64,000 nt of DNA, from assembly GCA_950295325.1 (NCBI GenBank), contig OX485806.1:2172001-2236000 (forward strand). The letters are read 5' to 3'. The notes beneath the pieces are model-generated. The model saw only the letters and a list, made by a program, of their open reading frames with translations, was not told where the DNA came from and did not search any database. Positions 3,069 to 15,992 of this stretch are shown here, piece after piece. Numbering within the stretch: position 1 is the stretch's first letter; the number at the start of each line of letters is the position of its first letter. Source of the DNA: Polytrichum commune (taxonomy: Eukaryota > Streptophyta > Polytrichopsida > Polytrichales > Polytrichaceae). The translations under genes and the position numbers were made by a program.

Positions 3069-3080
3069 CCAAGTTGACCA
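3069..3080. repeat. Target-site duplication, left copy
   Basis: CCAAGTTGACCA, identical to 15981-15992. The pair brackets the complete non-LTR retrotransposon. A 12-bp duplication fits target-primed reverse transcription. Confidence 0.8.
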
Positions 3081-3298
3081 GAGAAGAGAAGAGAAACAAC
3101 TTCGGTCTCCGAAGGAGACCGACGTGAATTAAGTGTCTGTTCGATCTACCTTCAATCCCAAGCCCACAGGACAGAGGTATGAAGGAGAAGATCTACTCCC
3201 CCCTTTCGAGAGTAGACACTTTAGACACAAGAAACCAGTAATGTAACTACGCCTAATATAATACCCCTTGCCCCTTACCCTAACTTTAAAGTTTTGAG
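3081..3298 (-). other. 3'UTR and tail of the retrotransposon
   Basis: Between the ORF2 stop (3301-3299) and the target duplication. It contains a perfect 8-bp-stem hairpin at 3103-3121 (CGGTCTCC, loop GAA, GGAGACCG) and ends on the minus strand in a TTCTC-type pyrimidine-rich simple repeat instead of poly(A). Reverse transcriptases of several non-LTR clades recognise 3' RNA structures of this kind. Similar hairpin-plus-tail ends occur at about 18038-18076 and 54383-54427. Confidence 0.65.
3103..3121 (-). repeat. 3'-terminal hairpin of the retrotransposon
   Basis: Perfect inverted repeat: 8-bp arms CGGTCTCC (3103-3110) and GGAGACCG (3114-3121) with a 3-nt loop, 22 bp from the element's 3' end. 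It is a candidate reverse-transcriptase recognition structure. Related hairpins sit at 18052-18076 and 15504-15520. Confidence 0.6.
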
Positions 3299-4172
3299 TT
3301 ATGGGGGGTCTGGATTTTGGGGGAGTGGTTGGTGGTTTTCAATTCTCCTTTTATGGAGGAGAATAGACATAGCATATTGTATTGCAATGGTGTTAATGTT
3401 TTTGAAGGTATTTTTGATGGTGGCCATAGGTATTTTGAAGTTGGTCTCTAGTGCTTTCATAGATGGGGTGTGGGCAGTCGCTCTGGCACCAGCAGTGATG
3501 ACAATAAGTGGTTCGATTTTCCATCCTTTGGAAGCAATGCTGGCAATTAGTGGGCTGTATTTGTTATTTTTTGCTTCAATTGCTTATGGGGAGAATCTGT
3601 CATTGCAATATGTGAATGCAATGAATTGTATGGTAAGGTTAGGGTCGACATCGTTGGGGGGGGGCATTTTGATATGTTAGTCCTTTTACACATAGGATAT
3701 CAGGTCTAAATATTGCGTTACAGTGACATCTTTGTGTACTACATGTGCAGGGGAGTAGCCAATTGGGGACTGTGTTTTCTTGGGGATTGTTATTGAAGGT
3801 GCCAGCATTCATGAGAGTAAAGCATCGGGATTTTTCTGATGAAATTAGGAGCTTCCTAATTTCTCCGACTGCTTTGTTATGTCTTTTAACTCTAAGTGAG
3901 TGTATATGTTGGTGTTTACATGTAAGTAATACATGTATCCATGTATCTGGTTCATTTGAGTTGCATATGGGGCACGTGATAGTGGGAAATCTTTGGTGGC
4001 CAAAAAACATTTGTTTTCTCGCATTACCCATGTAGGTTCCTGTGCGGAATTTGATGAGGCATGATTTTTGTTTGTCGGTGATAGCGGGATTTGTCCAGAA
4101 TTCGTTTGACAGCTCATTGTCTATATCTACGTTTTCTGTCCATTTACGGGTGTTGGGGGTTTGTGTAGCCAT
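3299..4172 (-). pseudogene. ORF2 C-terminal part: CCHC zinc motif and RLE endonuclease
   Basis: The open segment 4172-3639 contains CPIC, then His nine residues after the second Cys, then Cys after four more (a CX2CX9HX4C motif), followed by KRHNKAV and RPDIL. After a frameshift in a run of nine C (3656-3664 on the plus strand) the neighbouring frame continues with IQFIAFTYCNDRF, a stop at 3586-3584, then KYSPLIASIASKGWKIEPL and on to 3299. A CCHC motif followed by RPD and a second acidic/FTYCNDRF block is the arrangement of restriction-like endonucleases in R2/R4/CRE/Dualen elements. The residue before FTYC is Ala, where I would expect an acidic residue, so the nuclease is probably dead even apart from the frameshift and stop. 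Another frameshift near a C5 run (4155-4159) separates it from the RNase H frame. Confidence 0.75.
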
Positions 4173-4330
4173 GATTGCTGGTTCGTTTCCCTATCATATT
4201 TTTTAATTTGTTTTTCTAGAAATCTAACTGGGCCTTTGTCCGGAACGTCTTCCATCGAGGCCCATACGTCTTTTTGGTAATAGTAAGGGGTGGCGTGGGC
4301 ATGTTCGTATGGGTGGGCGGCAATTCTGTG

Positions 4331-5221
4331 CTATAATTCTAATCCTTTTTTGGCTAGTTTGTCTGCTTTTTCATTGCCGTCAATGTTGACGTGTGCTCTA
4401 ACTTTGTATAGTGTAATTGGTTGTGTCCTTTTTTGAAGAATTTTTACCATGGAGGCTAGTGTGGTTTGGTCTGGGTGACTATTATGAAGTGTGGGGTGTT
4501 TAATTTTAGTGTTAAGTAGGTATAATACATTTAGACTGTCTGTGAATATGTATGCGGGTTCGTTGGGAAACTGTGCGTTGATAATGCTTAGTGCTTCGTG
4601 TATAGCAATCATTTCTGCTCGTAATATGTTTTGATGTCCATGTAATCTATTGGCGATGTTTAGCCCTTTGGGGCTGTAGATACCGTATCCAGCTCTTTCT
4701 CTTCTCCATTCCCCGGGGGCTATTTCTTTGGGTTTCATAAAGGAGCCATCAGTGTAGTAGCTGAATTTGGGGTGGAATTTTAGTGGTAGGTTTGTTTGGT
4801 AGTTTGGGAGTTGTGGGGTGGGGATGTTATTGTTTGGGGGTATATTTGGGTAGTTTGATTTAGACCATTTTTTACTAGAGTTCACTGTGATGTTTGAAGG
4901 GGTGGGTGGTGCAATTTGGGTGTGACTTTGTAGTATTTGGAGATTGTCTGCAATGTCTTTTAGTAGTTTCATTTGTTCATAGGTGCCTATGTTATTATTT
5001 TGGTGGTGGATACAAAATATTTGTAGGGTAGACGGTTCTTTTCTTGTAATATTGAGTTCGGGAGGTATTGTGGGTTTTTCATATGTAATCGTATCGGCTG
5101 CAAAGTGGGCAATGATGTATGTGTCCAGGAATGGACCTACGGGCGGGTTTGGGTTTTTGTACCAGTCGGTATCCGGAGATATAAGTATAGTGATTGTATG
5201 TGGATCATTTTGGGCCGCCAT
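4331..5221 (-). pseudogene. ORF2 segment: RNase H domain
   Basis: The minus-strand segment encodes a type I RNase H. Visible catalytic pattern: YTDGS (first Asp, near 4748), RAEMIAIHEAL (Glu), FTDS (second Asp), then VRAHVNIDGNEKADKLAKKG at the C-terminus with the last His/Asp set. It would remove RNA from the cDNA hybrid. It is in the same frame as the upstream reverse transcriptase, cut off by a stop at 5356-5354 upstream and ended by TAG at 4333-4331. RNase H is common in I, R1, Tad and Dualen-type elements. The first ~90 residues (with DTDWYKNPNPP) belong to the preceding unassigned domain. Confidence 0.85.
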
Positions 5222-6052
5222 TCGAGCCCAGTGAATGGCTTGTTGTAGGTCTGTTTCGTTGTGGGGGTGAGCGTATCCTATTCCTTGCCATTTATGGTCA
5301 AATGCTTTCCCTAAGGATCCAAATATTATGTCATGCGAGAATGGCGAGTAGAATTAGGTGAGTTGTGTGGGGCATGTCACTGGGGATGAGAAGTATGACT
5401 GGTTGATATTGAATGTGGTTATTAGGAGATCCAATATTGGGGTTGATATTGTATATTGGGCACGTTTGAGTGGGTCACTTTTCGGGATTCGGTATTTGTA
5501 TATTTGATATAACCAGACAATTTCGGTTTCGAACGATTGGGTGGGCGGTTCTAGCCCATGTGTGGTGTTTTTTGCCAATTGGTATTGTTTCCATAACCAC
5601 ATTAGTCTAGTTTTCGGGATGGTGATGAGGTGCCTACCATTATCCTCGTATATGTGAGCGACGTCAAATTGTATTTGGATTGTATTGGAGTTGGTTTCGA
5701 TGTCATTTTCTGGGTTGCATTCATTAATAGAGATATGTGCTAGTGGGATTATAGTGGTAGGTATGACATATCTCGTGTCTCTTTGTTGTTCTGTGGAGAA
5801 GTAGGCATTAATAATGTTTGAGAAGTGTTTGTGTTGTCTTTCCGTGTAGTAGTGGGTAAGTAGGGCGGTGTTGTGGTTGCAAGTGTTGGCATCGTAATAG
5901 AGGAATAGGTCCCTTGGGGTTTGCCATTTGTTGTATGTGTGATTATTTGTTGTAGTCCATTGACATAGGTATGACGTGACTGTTCTTTTTATTCCGTTAT
6001 GGTCGGTAGATTGTTTTTGTTTGTGATCTAGTATTTTGTATATGGGATATTG
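5040..6052 (-). pseudogene. ORF2 segment: unassigned domain between RT and RNase H
   Basis: The ORF2 frame continues for about 340 codons from the stop at 6055-6053, with one more stop at 5356-5354. Recognisable pieces: FDVAHIYEDNGRHLITIPK, YFSSP, then after the second stop FYSP, DIIFGSLGKAFDHKWQG, AHPHNETDLQQAIHWAR and ISPDTDWYKNP. The order of an FGS block, a G-x-N/H-P block and a Pro-Asp-x-Trp block vaguely recalls N6-adenine methyltransferase-like domains seen in some eukaryotic retroelements; if so, the usual NPP[YF] is degenerate here. That comparison is from memory and uncertain. The alternative is a lineage-specific spacer domain. Confidence 0.4.
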
Positions 6053-8314
6053 TCAAGGGTCCTTAAGTATGTTGTTGGGGGGAGGGGGTAGAGGGGGGAT
6101 GGGAGGGTTTGGGGGGTGTACGGGAGGAGTCGGTAGGTGAGGTAGAATGTTATGGTGTCTTAGTATATATTTGTCTTTGAGGGATCTGGGCAGATGGTGT
6201 CGTTGGCATGGTAGGGGGCATTCGTGGTTACAGGGAGGTTGGCAAAATAGTTGATTAGCAATGTTTAGTGCACTTTGGATGAGTTTGGAGGAGGTGGAGT
6301 GGTAGATTTTGAATTCATCTAGGTTCATTAGTGTGGAGCCATTAGGCATGGTAATTTGGTCTAGTGTTGTTATATTATGTATGAGCAATTTGTGTAATAG
6401 TTTAAGTGAGGTGTTGGGATTTAGACCCTGTAGCATTTGTGCTTCTTGCATCCATGCGTTTTCAAGTGGGGATGGATGTAGGAGGAAGTTGTTTATTGTA
6501 CTTTTAAGGTGGACTCCGGCTTTATGCTTGAGCAAAAATAGTGTTCTAGTGATAGGTGATCTAACACAGTGGTGGTATTTAATACGGGTAATTTCTTTAG
6601 AACCTCCGTATTTGGCAAGTATAAATTGCGTTAAGCCGGTATAAATTTTCCCAATACGGCCTTTGTCGTTAAGGGCATTTTGTAGTTGCTCTCCAATACA
6701 CCGTAGATAGGCATTTTGTAGTGAAAATGCTTCAATTCCAAATAGATTGTGGGGAAGTTGTGTAGCAATATTAGATGTGCATTTGGGTATTCCACATATT
6801 GTTTTATGGAGTACGATGATCTTTTTGTCAAGTTTTTTTATGGCTAGTATGGAATATGGTACTGCATAAAAGCTATATGCTATTCCAGCGCGTATGACTG
6901 TATCAGCCATGTTGATTTTTTGTTTCATAGTGGCTGGACATGCTACGAGGGCTTGACATTGTTTGGTTATTTTAGCTGTAGTGGTATTTATTTGTGTTTT
7001 CCACTTGAGTGATGGTGCAAGATTTATTCCTAGGTATGTATAGGGTTCGTGTTGGTTTAAGACTGGTATAGGTTGGTTTCTATAGTTTATGTTGGTGGAT
7101 TGGATTAGGGCCTTGAAGGTTGTGGGGTTAAGTTTAGATTTGTTTGGGCATCCAGTTACTGCGCATTTTGGTATTCCTAGATCCATTCCTGCCCATTTGC
7201 AGAATTTGTCTAGTTTATGTAATTGTGTTTGTAGTGTCTCTAGTTTGTTGGCTATTGCTGCAAGATCGTCTGCATATGCTGCTGATGAGATTTTGATTCT
7301 AGACGTACCGAAAGTATATCCATTGTTTCTTTTTTGTAGCCATCTGAGTAGGGGCTCTAGAAATATGATGAATAAGTATGGGCTAAGGGTATCGCCTTGT
7401 ATTGTACCTCTTTGGATGTGGATTGGTAGGATTTTTCCGAAGTGTTCGCCTGTAAATATGGTTGAAGATTGTGAGTATATGTTTCCTATGAGGTTTATTG
7501 AGTCATTAGGGTAACCCAAGTCTTTCATTATGGCTAAGAGTTTGGCGTGGTCAATGGAGCCAAAGGCGTTTTTGAAGTCAATATAAAGAATATATATATC
7601 TTGGTTTGTGAGTCTTGCGTCTTCAAGCGCTGCAATTAGTATTTGGATTTGTCTGGAGGTGCTTCTTTCTGCTCTGAACCCTTCTTGGCTATCGTGTAGT
7701 ATTTGGTATCTTTCTCCGTATGCTGATAGGATAGAGGTTAGTGTACTTGTATAAAGTTTATATATGGTGTTAGCTAGTGCAATAGGTCTGTGATTTGTTA
7801 GTTGTGATGGGTTGCCTTTTTTATATAATAAAACTGTTAGGCTAGTTTTCCATGATGCGGGAATTTGTTTTTGTTTATAGCAGTGCTTAAAGAATAGGAA
7901 AAATAATTTGTGAAAGCACGGAGGCATATTTTTGAGAATTGAGTTGGGAATTTTGTCTCGGCCTGGGGCTTTGTTATTACTTAGATTTTTAAGACAGAAG
8001 TCGTAGGTTTCTTGATCAAAGTATGTGTGTAAGGAAATTTGGGGTTCTCTTCGTTTGTCAATTGTGTACCCTTCTAGGTCGTGCCATGGGTATTGTCTGA
8101 CTCCACATGTACAGTATAGTGGGTGTGTATTTTGATGGTGGCACGTGGGGACTATTGGGCGGTTACTGATGGATTGTTGTGCGTAAATCTCTGATGCAAT
8201 GTCTTCAGGGCTGGTTAATATGTTATTTTGTCTATCAATGATGGAGTCAAGAGGTGAAGTTTCAGTGTTTTTTAAGACTTTACGGTTTATTTTCTTGGGG
8301 TTTTTTTCATACAT
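6053..8314 (-). pseudogene. ORF2 segment: reverse transcriptase
   Basis: A 753-residue open segment, part of a frame that continues upstream into the APE domain. RT blocks in order: PGRDKIPNSILKN, LLYKKGN plus NHRPIALANTIYKL, QEGFRAERS, YIDFKNAFGSIDH (motif A, catalytic Asp), QGDTLSPYLF (motif B), AYADDLAAIA (motif C, YADD at 7265-7276), then YTYLGINLAP. All three catalytic Asp residues are kept. Near the C-terminus is a Cys/His cluster (CNHECPLPCQRHH) and a Pro-rich tail (HLPTPPVHPPNPP). The domain copies the element RNA from a nicked target. The segment ends at TGA (6055-6053) with the same frame still open beyond it, so that stop is an acquired lesion. Confidence 0.92.
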
Positions 8315-8728
8315 TTGGCGGTATTTCGATACAGCTTTTAGAATGTAGTCTCTAGTATATTTTGTGGTGATTTTTCTGGCTTCTTTATTTGCAGTTTTTG
8401 TGAGGGCCGCTATTGTGTTAATCCATTCATCAGGGGATGCTGCTGTAGCAGGTGGGTGCGGGATGTTTACGTGTTGGTGGTTTTGGATATCGGTTAGGAT
8501 GGGGTGTACTAGCCAACTTGGGTCATGTTGTGCTATGTAAATGTCTTTTCTGATGAGATGATATGTGTTGAGGTGTCTTTTCCATTCTCTAGCTTGTTTG
8601 CGTGGTAGAAAACCGCCTTGTTGCGATGTTCTGGTTGTAATGTTAGGTAGTGGATCTGCTTTGCAGGTTTTTTCAATTGTTTCTGAGATTTTGTTTATAA
8701 TGTAGTCCAGTGATGCACAAGCATCTAG

Positions 8729-9958
8729 TCATTGATCAGGTATTAAGTGTTGGTGGTTTTCTAGTAGTGTGATAAGTTCTTTAAGTTGGGTGGAGTTTTC
8801 TTCAAAGAATGTTGTGTTAAATTTTTCTAGGTTTTCATGTGGTATCGGGTTCAATATTCTTGTTGGTGGGGTGTTTGTAAGGGGTGGGGGTCTGGCTATA
8901 AATGTGTTGTGTGGGATGTGTAATGTGACCGGATAGTGATCTGAATTTAGATTCATGTTAGTGTTTGTAGTGGAGGTGAATTTGCTGTTGTCTGGGGAGT
9001 GAATATAGAAACCATCTATTAGGCTTGTTGATGTGTAATTGTAGCCATCTTGTCTTGAGATACTAGTGTTGGTTTGAATATATTCTAAGTTGAGAGATGT
9101 GGTGAAGTTTTTCCATTGGAAGTCTTCTTCTTGTGGGGGGGTGTTAGTATTGTTATTTTGTCTACCCCTGAGTGCAATATCTCTGTTAAAGTCACCGCAT
9201 AGTGTATATATGTGATTGGGGTGTATAGTGATTTCGTTCTTAAGGTGTGGGATAAGACATGTGTCTTCTAAGTGCGTGGGCATATACATGTGTATGATTA
9301 GCCAAGGTATTAGTGGGTGATTATTTATTTTTATTATTTGGAGATATGGGGAGATGTTTGCTGGTGTGGGGATTTTGGTGACATTTCCCGGGAATGCATA
9401 TTTGTGATGGATAAGTGTAAGTAGGCCACCTCTTCCGGGAGTATAAGGCATCATTTGTTGGATGCACCTTGTGAGTGCGTGTGTGTTGTTGGAAATGAGT
9501 TTGAATTCCGGGAATAGGTTTTGTATATATTTCGTGGATTTGTTTGCAGTAAGTTTGGTTTCTTGGATATGTATGATTGCTGTGTTGTTTAGAGAGTTGT
9601 TTATTAAGCTTTGTAGGTTTGGTAATGATGTGTTGAGTGATGACGCATTCCAAGTTATTATGGTCGCTTCATGTTCGGTGTTGGTGTTTATTCTTGTGAT
9701 TGGTGTGGGAGCGGCTGGGAGTGGGGATGGGTGTGAGTATTCGCTGATGTTTTCTAAACATCTAAGTGTTTCGGTTATTAACTGGTTTGGGAGGAAAGGG
9801 AATTTTTTCTTGAGGGTGGTTGATGTAGGTGTGGTTACTTGGTTGTGGATGAATTTGTATATTTTTGCGTGTATTGAGTTTTGAGGGAGTATTATATGTT
9901 GATTGTTTTCTATGAACGTTGTGTAGGGGTGCGGTGTCAGTATGTGTCGCTCGGGGGG
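8729..9958 (-). pseudogene. ORF2 segment: APE-type endonuclease
   Basis: Open in one frame from the C6 run at 9953-9958 to a TGA at 8731-8729; beyond that stop the same frame runs into the RT segment. Motifs: ITWNASSL (N-terminal Asn block), HIQETKL (metal-binding Glu, codon 9562-9560), CGDFNRDI (Asp/Asn pair), then LNSDHYPVTLHI (catalytic SDH, near 8927-8944). These are the APE (exonuclease III-fold) signatures that nick target DNA in LINEs. All key residues seen are intact. A long Thr/Pro-rich linker precedes the domain. The upstream frame (through NYHFNNIWTNTL) joins only if one base is gained or lost in the C6 run. Confidence 0.88.
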
Positions 9959-10119
9959 TTGGTGAGGTTAGCTAGTCTAATGATTAATGTGTTGGTCCAT
10001 ATGTTATTAAAGTGGTAGTTTTGGGGTTGGGCTAGCATGTTATTGCATATGTTTATTGCGGGGAGGATGGTAATAATTAGGGCGTATATCATATGGGTTG
10101 GTGGCGACTGGTTTTGTGT

Positions 10120-12792
10120 TTAGGTATAATGGTGTAGATGTGGGTATGTGGTGATTGCTTGGAGGTGTAGTGGGTGTGTGTGTTTTAGGATAGGGGCGAA
10201 TGTATTTGCTAGGTGTTGGTATTCAGGTTGTAGTTTTATAGTATTTGGGATAAAATACGTGTTGGCTTTTTTTTTGTGTGTAATAAGGTGTGTTCGTAGA
10301 ATATCAGGCATTGGTCCCGGGTTAAGTTCGATGTCCCCGCATTTTAGTAGATCTAGTATGTCAATGAAGTAATATCCGTAGAATTGAAGTGTTTTTGGTT
10401 TTCTCGTATTTATTTTTAGATATTTCAAAAATGTGAATTTGGTTGTGGTAAAGAGGTTAGGCATAGCGGGTGTGGTTTTTTCTACTAGTTCTGGTGAGAA
10501 GTGTGACGTTGCATTGTTTGTAGGTAGTGGGTTTGTTACTGAGTTAGGTTTCCAATTTTTTATGAAGTGGTATGTGTTATTTATGTGGCGAGGCCGGTAG
10601 GCCGAGGCCATTTTGTTATTTGGGTAGGGATTGTATTTTGAATATGGGTGTTTATATTTTTGGTAGGGTTTGTATTTAGGGTGGAGGTGGTATTTGGAGT
10701 GGGGGTATGGTGTGGGTTTTAGGTACAAGTTGTATGTAGGGTGAGGCTTGTGAGATTTTGAGTTAGATTGGGTTTCTTGTTTTGGTTGGTACCTATACGC
10801 TTGTTGGTATTTGTGTTTTGGGTATATTTTGGTTTTTGGATGAAGTTTATGTTTTAGGTGGACTCTATGATTTGGATGAAGCTTGTCCCTTGGATGAAGA
10901 TTGTGCTTTAGGTGAGGGCTATATCTTGGATGAGAATAGTATTGTGGGTGGGACCGGGGTATTTTTTGTTTTAGGTGGGAATCTTGTTGTGGGGGGGATG
11001 TTATATTTCCTAATTGATTGGGTAAAGGGCGTGTTTTGTTTGTTTTTGGGTTTTTCATGTTTATGGTTTTAATTATGGTAATCGGGTTGGATGGGGTGTG
11101 TGTGATGTTACTAGGTTGTTTAGGTGTGAGGGGAGGTTTAGATTTTGGTTGTGTATTGTGGTTAGGATGTAAACTATGCTTTGGATGTGATTTGAGTTTA
11201 GGGTGGAATCTATTTCTTGATGAGTACTTGTATTGTGAGAGAGGCCATTGTACTTTTTGTTTTGGATGAGCGGTAAAATTTGGATGCGTAGTGTGTTGTG
11301 TTCGGGGGTTGTATTTTGTGTAGTTGTTAGTGTGATTTGGTACATTTATAAGTTTTATATTTGATGTACTTGAAATAATAGGGAAGTATCTATATAGGTT
11401 AGTTGTTTTTGGTTGTGTCTTACTTGGTTTTTGATTTTTGATGAGTGTTAGTTTTGTTGTGGAGGGGATGTGGTGTAGGGTGGGTATTATGTTTTCTTGT
11501 TGTTTAGGTAGGGGGCGTGAGTTCACATAGTATTTAGGTACTTGATTTGTCATTAAGGTAGGTTTCCAGTTGGTGAGGTGATTTTTTCGGTTAGTTTTGT
11601 GGCGAGGCCGGTAGGCCGAGGCCATTTTGTTTGTTGGGTGTTGTTTGTATTTTGAGTAGGGGTCGGGTTGTGAGTAGGGGTAGAGTACGGATTTCTGTCG
11701 GGGTTTATGTTTAGGATGTAGTCTATTTTGTTGGCATGCCTTTAGGTTAGGGTAGGTTCCTTGTTCATGATGTGGGTTATGTTTTGGATGAGATATGTGT
11801 GTTGAGTGGCTTATGTGTTTTGAATGGGATCCATGTCTTGGATGAAGGTAGTTCATTGGGTGTGGTATGTGTTTTGGGTACTTTCCGTAATTCAGGGTGT
11901 GTGTAATGTTACTTGATTGTTTAGATGTGATTGGGGGATTTAGTTGTGGGTGTGGCCTTTGTTTAGGGTGTAGCCTATATTTTAGATGCAGTTTGGATGT
12001 AGGATGAAGTTCGTTTCTTGTGAGGTGCCTACATTGTGAGTGGGGCTGTTGTATTTTGTGTTTTGGATGAGAAGTATAGTTTGGATGTGTGGTGTGTTTT
12101 GTTCGGAGAGTATGTTTTGGGTTGTTGTTGTGTGGGTGGTTAGTGTAATTTGGTTTGTTTATAGATATTTGATTTACATTTGTTGTACTTGAGGTAGAGG
12201 GGTAGTATTTATGTAGGTTAGTTGTTTTGATTTTTGGTATTTTAATGAGTGCACGGTTAATTGTAGGGGTAGTGTGATGTTGGGCGGGTATTATGTTTTC
12301 TTGTTGTTTGGTTAAAGGGTATGCGTTTGCATAGTGTTTAGATATTTGGTTTGTTATTGGGGTAGGTTTCCAATTAGTGAGGTGGAGTTTGCGGTTAGTA
12401 TTGTGGCGAAGCCGGTAGGCCAGGGCCATTTTGTTTGTTGAGTATTGTTTGTACTTTGGGTGTGAATGATGTTTAGGATGTAATTTATTTTGTTGGTGTG
12501 TTGTTAGGTTAGGATGGGTTTCTTGTTTATGGTGTGGGTTATGTTTTGGGAGAGGTATGTATTTTGAGTATAGTATGTGTATCGGATGGACTTTATGTCT
12601 TGAATAAAGGTAGTGTAATTGTTTTGGATACTTTCCGTACTCGGTATGAAGGTTGCTTGTTGGGTGGGGATAGTGCCTTAGGTGGTAATTATATTTTGGA
12701 CGAAGCTGGGGTACTTTGTAACTTGTATGTATTCTGTATTTTATACAGAGGTTGTATATTGTACAGAGGTTGTAGTACGGGATGTATATGTA
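10120..12792 (-). pseudogene. ORF2 N-terminal His/Pro/Lys-rich repeats plus 2A motif
   Basis: Open from 12792 to the TAA at 10122-10120; the first ATG in this frame is at 12429. The protein is extremely rich in His, Pro, Lys, Asn, Thr and Tyr, dominated by HPKH-type peptides. It is built of long tandem repeats whose starts are marked by NKMASAYRPRH or NKMALAYRLRH (near 12432, 11625, 10612), then TNWKP, KQQENIIP and TTHPN blocks. The third unit diverges and leads into a 2A-like motif at 10338-10312. After the TAA the same frame stays open for about 55 codons toward the endonuclease, so that stop is probably a mutation. The repeats match no domain I know; a basic nucleic-acid-binding or condensing role is only a guess. 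Confidence 0.75.
10312..10338 (-). other. 2A-like ribosome-skipping motif in ORF2
   Basis: The ORF2 frame encodes LLKCGDIELNPGP followed by Met. It fits the 2A consensus D-[VI]-E-x-N-P-G-P with the usual Leu-rich lead. In 2A peptides the ribosome skips the Gly-Pro bond, giving two proteins from one frame. Here the skip would release the repeat-rich N-terminal protein from the endonuclease/RT part. 2A-like motifs are known at the N-terminus of other non-LTR ORF2 proteins (trypanosomal L1Tc/ingi, several animal clades). Activity is inferred. Confidence 0.85.
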
Positions 12793-13038
12793 TTATGGTA
12801 TATGTATTGGGTGGGTGGTTTGTTGGGGCCTACCGTATTGGGGTATAGGTGAAGTATGATTGTATTTCGTATAAGTCTTTTGACACCGTAGGGTACTTTG
12901 TATGCAACTAGGGTATAGTATATTTATTCTAGTATGTATTTGTATTTTGCTATATATTTCTACGTATTTGGGGTAGTATTGTATTAAATACTTTTTTTTT
13001 GCTTGGCGGTTTGTGGTCACTCCACATTTGGTTGGTCT
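12793..13038 (-). pseudogene. ORF2 frame start overlapping the ORF1 stop
   Basis: The ORF2 frame opens at about 13038, inside the last codons of ORF1, and reads through the ORF1 stop as GTG ACC ACA, encoding TTNRQAKKKYLIQYY and more, to a TAA at 12795-12793. There is no ATG in this frame until 12429. The junction GTGA would be ATGA with a single transition, the stop/start overlap used for termination-reinitiation in SART1-type elements. Whether the segment is translated through reinitiation, frameshifting or not at all is open. Confidence 0.5.
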
Positions 13039-14825
13039 TTAAGCATGAGGTTAGGATTTACCGAGCCGGTAATTTGTTGCATCCCGGTAAGTGCTAGGGT
13101 TAGAGTATTTTGGATGTCTAGCATTTGTTTTTTCATTTTGTCATTTATTTCATCCGCATATATGTGTGCTTCTCTCACAATATCATTTTTTAATTCTCTC
13201 ATGTCTTTATGAAGCTCAAGTTTGAGTTTCTTGTTGCCTTCCTCAATAGCTTCTTTCATGACGGTAAAAACATCCCCTTTTGTAGCACTTTCCTCCCCTT
13301 GAGTTTGGTTTTGAATGGCTTCAATAGTGTTTACCAAACACGTATTGGTGTCTTCAAATCCAAATTTGATTAGTAATTCCTTGGAGGGTTTGTCTATGCC
13401 TTCAATACTCCGGCGGTGAGGGGTAATTTCAACATGGTAAGTTCCGATTTTTACCTCTTTCCCTACAAATTTCCTATACACATAGGGGTTGAGGCATTCC
13501 ACATTGGCACTTCCGTTATGTCTCAAACCGTCTTGCTTGTGGAACCATATAGAAACAACATTCTTGGTTCCTAGTATTTTGCAAATTTCTAATGAGGTGT
13601 CATCAATATTGATCAATATTGGGAGGTTGTAAAAGGTTAGAATAAGGGCCTCTTTTTTTGCCTTTTGCTCTAGTGTGAGAGAGGGGCCATTCTTTACTTG
13701 ACCTTCAAGGATTTGGTGGTGTGTAGCTACTTGAAGAGTTTGGATTTTTTTGGCTTGAAGGGGGGTAGGGGCAACAAGATAGGCATGATTGTTAGTAGTG
13801 CTCTTTTGAACTTCAACAACCTCAAAATTGTGACCTCTTCTAAAGCTATTTTCTAGGACATCAAGAGAGAGAGCATGAGGTGTCAATCCAATTAGTGCAT
13901 CATTTGAGATTTTGATAGAAAGATTGTTGCTCCTAGCAATGGAGTGGTATGACTTGCATACCTTGCCAAGGCTCCCAACATTGGAGTGAGGTTCAAGATG
14001 GAGGATGAAGGGTCTAAGACCCGTGAGTAGGGCTACTCCGTCGGTTTGAGGGTTAAGGAGGTGAAGTTTAACTATCCCAGCCCATACTCCTTTAACTCCT
14101 CCTCTCTTAATACTCATGCATAAGACTGAGATAGGTTCAATGAGGTTAGTACCAAGTGGAATGTGCATGTCAATTAGCCTTTCTTTAACAAGCTCCTTAA
14201 TGTGATTGTGGAATAAGGGGTTGTTAGGGAGCTGAAAATGAATGGCAATTTGAAAATCTAAAGACATGCATGAAATGGGGTCGATTTCAATTTCGGATGG
14301 GAGCTGGGTGAGGTTAAGGTGCTGCCCCGGGAGTCCATCACTTCTCACACTTGGATACAAAATTTGTGGCACTCTTGGGTAGGAGATGCTTACGCTTTCA
14401 AGCTCCTCGGCTTCCTTACGAGGGATGCCCCTTGTAACTCTATCAGCAATGGTTTCATCTGAAAATAATTCCTCAATCCCTTGCTCTATAGCTAGGTATT
14501 CCATGGTTTCAAAGCTGCCTAACCACAGTTTGAGTTTCTGGTTTAATGGAGTTTCGGTGGTGTGAATCCCGGTTCGGGGGGAGATTACCTTTTGGGTGTT
14601 TGAAGGCGGGGAAGCTCCTGCCCGGTCCCTGGACCTCTTCCCATTGGCTGCCGCTTTCGAGTTTGATTTAGCCTTCTCTGCCAGCAGTTTTTTCAGACTT
14701 AGCGACGGGGAGTCTATCTCCATGGTGTCATCCTCTTCCCCAAATACTTTGGCTAGAGCCTTTGGGATTAGCTCCCTTCCTGCCCCGTTGCCACTATCCC
14801 GGAGGGGGGCCCTTGTTGAGGCCAT
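13017..14825 (-). CDS. Retrotransposon ORF1 protein, RRM-like with coiled coil
   Basis: An intact 602-residue reading frame if started at the ATG at 14825, which has a good context (AAATGG); the frame stays open to an ATG at 14978 that would add 51 residues of low-complexity Ser/His/Arg-rich sequence, less likely to be real. N-terminus: acidic/Ser-rich then a basic cluster (KRSRDRAG). Around residues 410-510 the pattern ALILTFYNLP, VVSIWFHKQDG, GSANVECLN, GTYHVEITPHRR resembles an RNA-recognition fold found in LINE ORF1 proteins. The last ~80 residues (EEGNKKLKLELHKDMREL onward) are a predicted coiled coil for oligomerisation. Expected role: RNA-binding chaperone packaging the element RNA. 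Its TGA stop overlaps the start of the ORF2 frame as GTGA. It is the only major ORF of this element without lesions. Confidence 0.8.
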   Translation of the reverse strand: MASTRAPLRDSGNGAGRELIPKALAKVFGEEDDTMEIDSPSLSLKKLLAEKAKSNSKAAANGKRSRDRAGASPPSNTQKVISPRTGIHTTETPLNQKLKLWLGSFETMEYLAIEQGIEELFSDETIADRVTRGIPRKEAEELESVSISYPRVPQILYPSVRSDGLPGQHLNLTQLPSEIEIDPISCMSLDFQIAIHFQLPNNPLFHNHIKELVKERLIDMHIPLGTNLIEPISVLCMSIKRGGVKGVWAGIVKLHLLNPQTDGVALLTGLRPFILHLEPHSNVGSLGKVCKSYHSIARSNNLSIKISNDALIGLTPHALSLDVLENSFRRGHNFEVVEVQKSTTNNHAYLVAPTPLQAKKIQTLQVATHHQILEGQVKNGPSLTLEQKAKKEALILTFYNLPILINIDDTSLEICKILGTKNVVSIWFHKQDGLRHNGSANVECLNPYVYRKFVGKEVKIGTYHVEITPHRRSIEGIDKPSKELLIKFGFEDTNTCLVNTIEAIQNQTQGEESATKGDVFTVMKEAIEEGNKKLKLELHKDMRELKNDIVREAHIYADEINDKMKKQMLDIQNTLTLALTGMQQITGSVNPNLMLKDQPNVE

Positions 14826-15980
14826 TTCGGTCTGTGCTGTGTTGTGGGAGCGGCGGTGATTCGTTAGACACTGTGTTGCTATAGGGTGAGAATCGTGGCA
14901 GGTTTGAGGCGAACTCCTGCTGGATCGGCGATGAGAATGCGGCGATGAGAATGCGGCGATGAGTCTCGGGGGCGGCACTTGATCTGTAGACCTGCAGGGT
15001 TAGAATTAGGGTAGATCTGATGCGGGTTTTTGTTGGGTTGGCATTGAGAGTGTGATGATGCGCTACGGGGGCGGTGCTTGATCTGTAGACCTGCGAGGTT
15101 AGGATTGAAGTAGATCTGATGTTGGTCGCCTTTGGTTTCTACAATCTTCCTGCTACAGCTCTGGTGTGGGTTCGCACATGTTGTCGATCTTGATTTGTTG
15201 ATGTTGTGAGTAGTCTCTTTTCCAATGCTGTTGGTTCCTCGCGTTTCTGTAGGCCTCTGGTGTAGATCTGAGCAACTATGTTGCGCTGGATCCCCTCCTG
15301 TAACGCCGCCTCCCCTATCTTCCGCTTCGACCCCCTCCCTGCTCTGTTCGTTGGTGTTGTATGATTTTCCTCCGCGTAAGGCAGATGTCGCTACCTGCAG
15401 ATCTACTCTGTGCTGGGAGTGTGTTTCTAGACCTAGTTGATAAGCATCTATACTATGTGTAAGAAGCAGGTACAATGTAGTAGCAATGTGAATGAAAGAA
15501 AAAAGGAGCCTTTGGCTCCTCCTGTTCGACTCTCTGTCTATTTCTGAAGGTGTATTTCCCGGCTCAGTGTGGCGATCTAGAGTGTCAGTATGTTTGGGTC
15601 ATGGGTGCTTGTTTTTCCTTCCCCTAATGTGATACACACAGTTTTCAGATCTAATCGAATATCAGTGGAGCAATGCAGTTCTCCTAATCATAATTAAGCA
15701 GAGTCCCAGCTCTTCAGAGTGCTCTACTTCTTAAGATTCAACTGACATTTCCACATACCTAATTCACCAGATCTAAAACTTGAGCATACACAATACCCCT
15801 CAACACTGCCAAGCCCCTCTCCAAACACACTGGCCGTCTGTTTCCTAGTGAGCACGGGGTCACTGCAAGGCCAGCCTCCTAGCAGTACGCACATAAATCT
15901 ACAGCGGCTTCTCTACCGTCACACACCTCACCGGGAAGGCTAAGCTCTCAGCAGCTCTCTCTCATCTCAGTCTCTTCCCC
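14826..15980 (-). promoter_or_regulatory. 5'UTR / internal promoter region of the retrotransposon
   Basis: About 1.15 kb between the 5' target duplication and ORF1. It contains direct repeats of roughly 105 bp (about 14958-15020 and 15062-15125, sharing TTGATCTGTAGACCTGC and GTAGATCTGATG). It also contains a 7-bp-stem hairpin at 15504-15520 preceded by TCGAACAG and followed by a T/C-rich run, resembling the element's own 3' end. Non-LTR elements carry internal promoters in the 5'UTR, so promoter activity is expected but not shown. A 198-codon open frame here (15475-14879) is likely fortuitous. Confidence 0.5.
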
Positions 15981-15992
15981 CCAAGTTGACCA
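15981..15992. repeat. Target-site duplication, right copy
   Basis: CCAAGTTGACCA, identical to 3069-3080. It abuts the solo-LTR-like repeat that begins at 15997. Confidence 0.8.

Follow-up and report, generated by a model that had tools for sequence, protein, structure and literature searches.

L1-type LINEs produce target duplications of variable length, and R2-type elements are not known to carry an APE endonuclease. To our knowledge, there is no settled answer to the question of why an element would keep both an APE and a restriction-like endonuclease (RLE). For LINEs that bear 2A/StopGo, the title of a 2013 paper by Odon names APE-type elements.

According to the portions of the literature available to us, to which all citations below are limited, the position of the dual-endonuclease elements has been taken as evidence that LINEs exchanged the RLE for an APE (PMC4640811). 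LINEs with an RLE carry a CX2-3CX7-8HX4C knuckle and a KX2KY motif in which the first lysine is catalytic (PMC5678591). StopGo (2A) peptides are functional in plants when supplied in constructs, and one survey reports no natural use of them in plant viruses (PMC12846837). Methyltransferases of types other than PCIF1 have been captured by retrotransposons (PMC5890265).

Here we analyse a window of 64,000 nucleotides from the moss Polytrichum commune, taken from a 408-Mb assembly (contig C4). The window probably holds an inactivated copy of a two-ORF non-LTR element in which ORF2 would encode a 2A peptide, an APE, a reverse transcriptase (RT), a PCIF1-like domain, an RNase H and a CCHC-RLE. This reading was made without data on expression, translation or cleavage.

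Results

The assembly was searched with RT, 3'-end and 5'-end queries. Matches in the genome came to 40 of 774 first-look candidates for the RT, 40 of 1,306 for the 3' end and 42 of 1,320 for the 5' end, all of which are rough counts. We fetched 17 further copies via ORF2, 15 of them selected for also matching the 3'-end query (which contains part of the RLE); 5' parts or ends were fetched for some copies only. Fifteen copies had both ends fetched, a count that leaves out L037 (5' end only), and the 3' core was not readable in L026 and L027. The limits of the window copy are as follows.

3069..3080, no strand: target-site duplication on the 3' side, CCAAGTTGACCA, 12 bp, perfect
3081..3093, minus strand: CT-rich 3' tail of the window copy, after the shared 3' core ending at 3094
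3094..15965, minus strand: element proper, 12.9 kb, bounded by the 5' end and the 3' core end that other genomic copies have in common with it
15966..15980, minus strand: filler between the duplication and the 5' end, 15 nt, not common to other copies
15981..15992, no strand: target-site duplication on the 5' side, CCAAGTTGACCA, 12 bp, perfect

An earlier sequence-only reading of this locus had described an element bracketed by an identical 12-bp duplication, and CCAAGTTGACCA is indeed found at 3069-3080 and 15981-15992. The ends that it proposed, 3081 and 15980, stand as insertion junctions but not as the ends of the element, since alignment of the copies places the shared ends at 3094 and about 15965; the proposed length of 12.9 kb holds for this shorter span. 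It had also named copies with differing ends as grounds for rejection, and none was found, the ends agreeing in 15/15 copies. Each of these 15 copies is flanked by a target duplication of 11-18 bp, and the flanks are different in all 15, so insertion is not site-specific. At the insertion sites, a G precedes the duplication in 9 of 15 copies, and the duplication opens with T in 14 of 15; this T may be common with the tail.

Filler of 8-50 nt was present at the 5' junction in all 15 copies. Its G content over the 15 copies was 32%, compared with 22% in the upstream flank, and its first base was G in 9/15. Two fillers share a terminal TGCAAAC, which may be element sequence. In copy C3:52, 19 nt of the filler match the window element in antisense orientation; in the other 14, matches reach at most 10 nt. 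At the opposite end, the 3' core is readable in 20 copies, of which 13 have (ATT)n tails and seven, including the window copy, have CT-rich tails.

Over its 5' part, the window copy shares 97-98% identity with four other copies, and we therefore infer recent movement of the family. Stops and frame changes split ORF2 of the window copy. The window holds one degenerate, inactivated member of a non-LTR family of high copy number. Positions 1-800 of the window, next to the element, contain repeats of 28-207 nt in direct and inverted orientation.

Plastid genes of the assembly point to a moss-like bryophyte as host and speak against an angiosperm. On plastid contig C8 (146,561 bp), rbcL is followed by trnR-CCG and a short accD of 315 codons, an order that is not known from angiosperms. 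The PsaB encoded there is closest to three PDB chains of the moss Physcomitrium (1700.6-1704.7 bits), ahead of 9lut (1667.2) and the Arabidopsis chain 7wfd (1630.3). RbcL gave a less clear result, with 9chz as its best match.

The coding features of the window copy are listed below in the direction of reading.

13017..14825, minus strand: ORF1, 602 codons in the window copy and 601 in L029, L030 and L032
10336..13027, minus strand: low-complexity N-terminal part of ORF2, rich in P/K/H/T/N, with repeats, about 900 codons, start unsettled
12404..12424, minus strand: hairpin repeat, 3 mismatches
11600..11620, minus strand: hairpin repeat, exact
10586..10606, minus strand: hairpin repeat CTCGGCCTACCGGCCTCGCCA, exact
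10312..10335, minus strand: 2A/StopGo core DIELNPGP, at the end of the low-complexity part of ORF2
8873..9685, minus strand: APE endonuclease with WNASSLN, QETK, GDFN and SDH, weak in Pfam
6548..8077, minus strand: reverse transcriptase, YADD at 7259-7282
6194..6247, minus strand: Cys-rich cluster FCQPPCNHECPLPCQRHH, with a comparable cluster in L048
5906..6052, minus strand: weak chromodomain-like segment, below the Pfam cut-off
4847..5656, minus strand: PCIF1-methyltransferase-like domain, placed after RT and before RNase H, AHPH replacing NPPF at 5258-5284
4307..4813, minus strand: RNase H, Pfam PF00075, 2.4e-13 to 4.3e-15
3302..3974, minus strand: CCHC (3918-3974) and RLE, motif-based
3867-3893, 3690-3710, 3593-3628 and 3557-3583, minus strand: RLE motifs RHN, RPD, the E-to-A position and KNNKY, respectively

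The motifs that the sequence-only reading had put in one order on the minus strand (HIQETKL, GDFNRDI, SDHYPV, YADD, RNase H, CCHC, RPD and FTYCNDRF) were all recovered in that order. The HMM search that it proposed for ORF2, run here with Pfam, returned RVT_1 (1.8e-30), RNase_H (4.3e-15) and, below cut-off, Exo_endo_phos_2 (3.7e-5). To that description we add the 2A/StopGo peptide, the PCIF1-methyltransferase-like domain and the weak chromodomain-like segment, and ORF2 thus runs from the low-complexity part through 2A, APE, RT, Cys-rich cluster, chromodomain-like segment, PCIF1-like domain, RNase H and CCHC to the RLE.

ORF1 matched no Pfam family above cut-off, and its dN/dS between subfamilies is about 0.065, with dS >1. 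ORF2 lies in the -1 frame relative to ORF1 and overlaps the end of ORF1 in L030. An ATG at window positions 13025-13027 overlaps the ORF1 stop and is in frame with ORF2 in only one of seven copies (L028). The run of A that follows this ATG is 8 long in L028, 9 in the window copy, L029, L030 and L031, and 6 in two copies. The N-terminal part of ORF2 is less constrained (pairwise dN/dS 0.40-0.54).

A conserved hairpin, TGGCctcGGCCtaccGGCCtcGCCA, is repeated within this N-terminal part and is also present in the further elements L061, L062 and L063. A 36-nt stretch containing it folds at -12.1 kcal/mol. L061 reads the hairpin in a different frame, and selection may therefore be on the DNA or RNA itself. 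When viral contigs were scanned for the protein P0003, no relative turned up.

None of the copies read has a fully open ORF2. Two keep a single frame, interrupted only by stops, from 2A to the end of the RLE: L014, with 2 stops over 2,367 codons, and L021, with 4 stops over 2,375 codons. L019 and L012 are fully open from 2A to RT. Among relatives, 5 of 150 scored PCIF1_WW matches lie within open frames of 2,625-2,924 aa, as given by the genome search.

Of the 16 copies spanning the 2A core, 14 read DIExNPGP; the exceptions are L012 (NLGP) and L025 (DIK). In the further elements it is canonical in two of three (L061 and L063), and L062 has DIK. Taken together, the core is altered in 3/19 sequences, one of which (L062) comes from an element with an open frame of 2,924 aa. 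These changes would suit the possibility that NPGP arose by chance in low-complexity sequence and has no StopGo activity. We consider this unlikely, though still to be reckoned with, because the window core fits the published (D/G/C/N)(V/I)ExNPGP motif (PMC12846837, PMC4981915) and because of the arrangement in L061. This element, whose family is about 56% identical over the chromodomain-like and PCIF1-like parts, keeps GDIETNPGP and the sequence downstream of it, whereas the upstream sequence, judged by eye, is apparently unrelated to that of the window family. Such a pattern is as expected of a functional boundary.

For the RT, the best PDB chain was an R2 (4e-29), and 8c8j, a human L1 chain, matched at 4.3e-13. 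When the RT alignment (A6) was compared with the PDB as a profile, 8gh6, 8ibw and 8c8j scored 63.4, 59.6 and 59.5 bits, the first two of which we take to be Bombyx R2 chains. On these profile scores, three of the five R2-type PDB chains place the RT closer to R2, and the other two approximately tie with 8c8j.

Selection was estimated from stop-free copies only. Between subfamilies, dN/dS was 0.09 for the RT (5 sequences), 0.10 for RNase H (12) and 0.10 for the chromodomain-like and PCIF1-like parts together (5); ratios within subfamilies were higher, at 0.16-0.27. Support for the chromodomain-like segment itself is slight. Pfam Chromo was found in 5 of 14 members of alignment A4 at E<=10 (best 0.12) and in two of seven pieces (best 0.0023), all under the cut-off, and a PDB profile search for the segment gave no matches. 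A low-confidence model (53.9) placed CHD1 chromodomains at Z 4.1, level with unrelated rows.

Pfam PCIF1_WW matched above cut-off in 3/3 proteins spanning the PCIF1-like domain and was found in all 14 A4 members. The PDB profile matched PCIF1 weakly (E 0.099), in an alignment that sets AHPH over NPPF, the catalytic motif of PCIF1. AHP is invariant over the 14 A4 members, which read AHP[H/P] at the NPPF position. Because the Asn of NPPF is replaced by His, the domain has probably lost methyl transfer. A genome search with PF12237 (PCIF1_WW) gave 150 scored matches and 697 candidates, and those fetched include elements 54-57% identical over the chromodomain-like and PCIF1-like parts. The elements bearing PCIF1_WW are a diverse set within one genome.

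An APE was found in 17/18 copies, with no match in the rearranged L022. Across the nine APE sequences of alignment A5, WN, GDFN and SDH are invariant and QETK is present in eight, L018 having QKTK. At E<=1, Pfam recognised Exo_endo_phos_2 in 8/9 (best 2.3e-6) and Exo_endo_phos in 7/9 (best 5.2e-6) of these sequences; the scores of A5 member 1 are under the Pfam cut-offs. A structure model built from the window sequence alone had a pLDDT of 32.7. The dN/dS of the APE was 0.13 between subfamilies (9 sequences) and 0.16 within them.

The C-terminal region extends about 200 residues beyond the CCHC knuckle. Over the 15 RLE sequences of alignment A3, which are as little as 66% identical, C-x2-C-x9-H-x4-C, RHN, PD, E and KxxK are invariant, and the Y of KxxKY is kept in 14. 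Outside A3, the RPD position reads RHD in L018 and RLD in L021. In the window copy the position of the catalytic Glu is Ala (QFIAFTYC); it is Glu in 17/17 other copies. The x9 spacing of the CCHC is one residue beyond the published CX2-3CX7-8HX4C range (PMC5678591). The dN/dS of the RLE was 0.08 between subfamilies (8 sequences) and 0.21 within them.

RLE sequence was found in 18/18 copies and in 14/14 further loci, which represent 13 further elements, as L048 and L050 belong to the same one. These 13 were located by PCIF1_WW and mostly chosen for long open frames, a selection that favours RLE presence. Copies without an RLE, which would have counted against the sequence-only reading, were thus absent from the 18 copies and 14 further loci, but the test is weak because the picks favoured the RLE. 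Pfam gave no endonuclease match for the RLE in any of the 15 A3 members, and the PDB profile gave none either. The identification of the C-terminal domain as a putative restriction-like endonuclease is motif-based: it rests on motifs and position, and the fold is unconfirmed.

Discussion

The central proposal of the sequence-only reading, a non-LTR element with two different endonucleases and an RNase H, is supported by the near-complete single frames of L014 and L021, by the RLE in 18/18 copies and 14/14 further loci and by the low dN/dS of APE and RLE alike.

The element may encode both endonucleases and use only one, the other being kept to bind DNA or for structure, which may also be the case for the PCIF1-like domain. 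Purifying selection is no proof of catalysis, and the PCIF1-like fold has been retained despite its replaced catalytic Asn, so this alternative keeps a modest chance. It has to contend with the retention of catalytic motifs in both nucleases: PD, E and K of the RLE over 15 A3 members, and WN, GDFN and SDH of the APE in nine A5 members, with QETK in 8/9.

The element could instead be an ordinary APE LINE with RNase H, its C-terminal CCHC a gag-like knuckle and its likeness to RPD/E/KxxKY fortuitous. The C-terminal domain is without a Pfam or PDB match, two R2-type chains are about level in score with the L1 chain 8c8j, and a CCHC knuckle also terminates APE LINEs (PMC5678591). We nevertheless find this quite improbable, since some 200 residues past the knuckle are difficult to explain in this way when PD, E and K-x-x-K are invariant in 15 sequences with identity down to 66%, dN/dS over the C-terminal part is 0.08 and KX2KY is the published signature of RLE LINEs (PMC5678591). 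A composite locus, in which the window copy alone would join an APE element to a separate RLE element by nesting or fusion, might account for the several frames of that broken copy, but it is ruled out by the single target duplication of each copy, by the APE in 17/18 copies (not the rearranged L022) and RLE in 18/18, and by the single frames that hold both nucleases in L014 and L021.

For a dual-endonuclease element, a life cycle can be proposed. Translation would pass from ORF1 to ORF2 through reinitiation or a frame change, a choice that is unsettled. Ribosomes would skip one peptide bond at GDIExNPG|P, freeing the low-complexity protein from an enzyme chain that starts P-M-P. Integration would be by target-primed reverse transcription, with a loose choice of site and with the first strand nicked by one endonuclease (which one is not known). 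Copying by the RT may begin at the 3' tail, be it (ATT)n or CT-rich, and RNase H would clear the template. The other endonuclease would cut the second strand at a distance of 11-18 bp, which would produce the duplication. The PCIF1-like domain may have been retained for its fold, perhaps binding RNA or the cap.

A broader and more speculative proposal, which we put forward as possible but rather doubtful as a whole, is that these elements are dual-endonuclease LINEs forming a lineage of their own in land plants. Here APE and RLE would split first- and second-strand cutting, a natural StopGo peptide would split the ORF2 product, and the captured PCIF1 methyltransferase would be a non-catalytic module that binds the cap or RNA and so ties the enzyme to its own mRNA.

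The family may show how dual-nuclease elements divide the work of cutting. Many similar copies are available in a plant, with intact target duplications, and the catalytic motifs of both nucleases are kept under low dN/dS, so the roles of the nucleases can be tested strand by strand. For a plant retrotransposon it would be unusual to have a natural StopGo peptide, and likewise to have captured a PCIF1-like domain, here apparently inactivated.

Among described elements, the Dualen/RandI group is similar in several respects. In the Polytrichum element an APE precedes the RT and a motif-based RLE follows it; RNase H has been reported for the group (PMC4640811), and PF00075 is present here; (ATT)n 3' repeats are given for the group (PMC3747384 Table 3) and occur in 13/20 Polytrichum copies. 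Judging by its architecture, its RNase H and the (ATT)n tails, and without an RT tree, we infer a Dualen-like element. Unlike the Polytrichum element, which is from a moss, the group had only green algae among its hosts in tables from 2013 and 2015 (PMC3747384 Table 3, PMC4438587 Table 3); it is possible that hosts outside the green algae have been reported since. The 2A peptide, the PCIF1-like domain and the long, repeat-rich N-terminal part of ORF2 are also differences, as they go unmentioned in the accessible parts of the cited literature. Among the open-licence literature listed, we noticed no land-plant Dualen/RandI element, no retrotransposon with PCIF1 and no LINE with a chromodomain.

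With R2 and other RLE LINEs the element shares its best solved RT match, an R2, as well as KX2KY and, with one residue more than the published spacing, a CCHC (PMC5678591). R2-type elements have a single ORF with an RLE and as a rule insert at specific sites (PMC5678591), whereas the Polytrichum element was found at 15 different sites. L1-type APE LINEs likewise have two ORFs and an APE ahead of the RT, but they are without an RLE, and the RT match to the L1 chain 8c8j is weaker than that to the best R2 chains. The likeness to the PCIF1 cap methyltransferase consists of PCIF1_WW above the Pfam cut-off and an FGSxG motif; the element differs in reading AHP[H/P] where PCIF1 has NPPF. Finally, 2A-bearing LINEs of trypanosomes and others also carry D(V/I)ExNPGP in a non-LTR retrotransposon (PMC4981915), but the Polytrichum element is a dual-endonuclease element, resides in a plant and has its 2A after about 900 codons.
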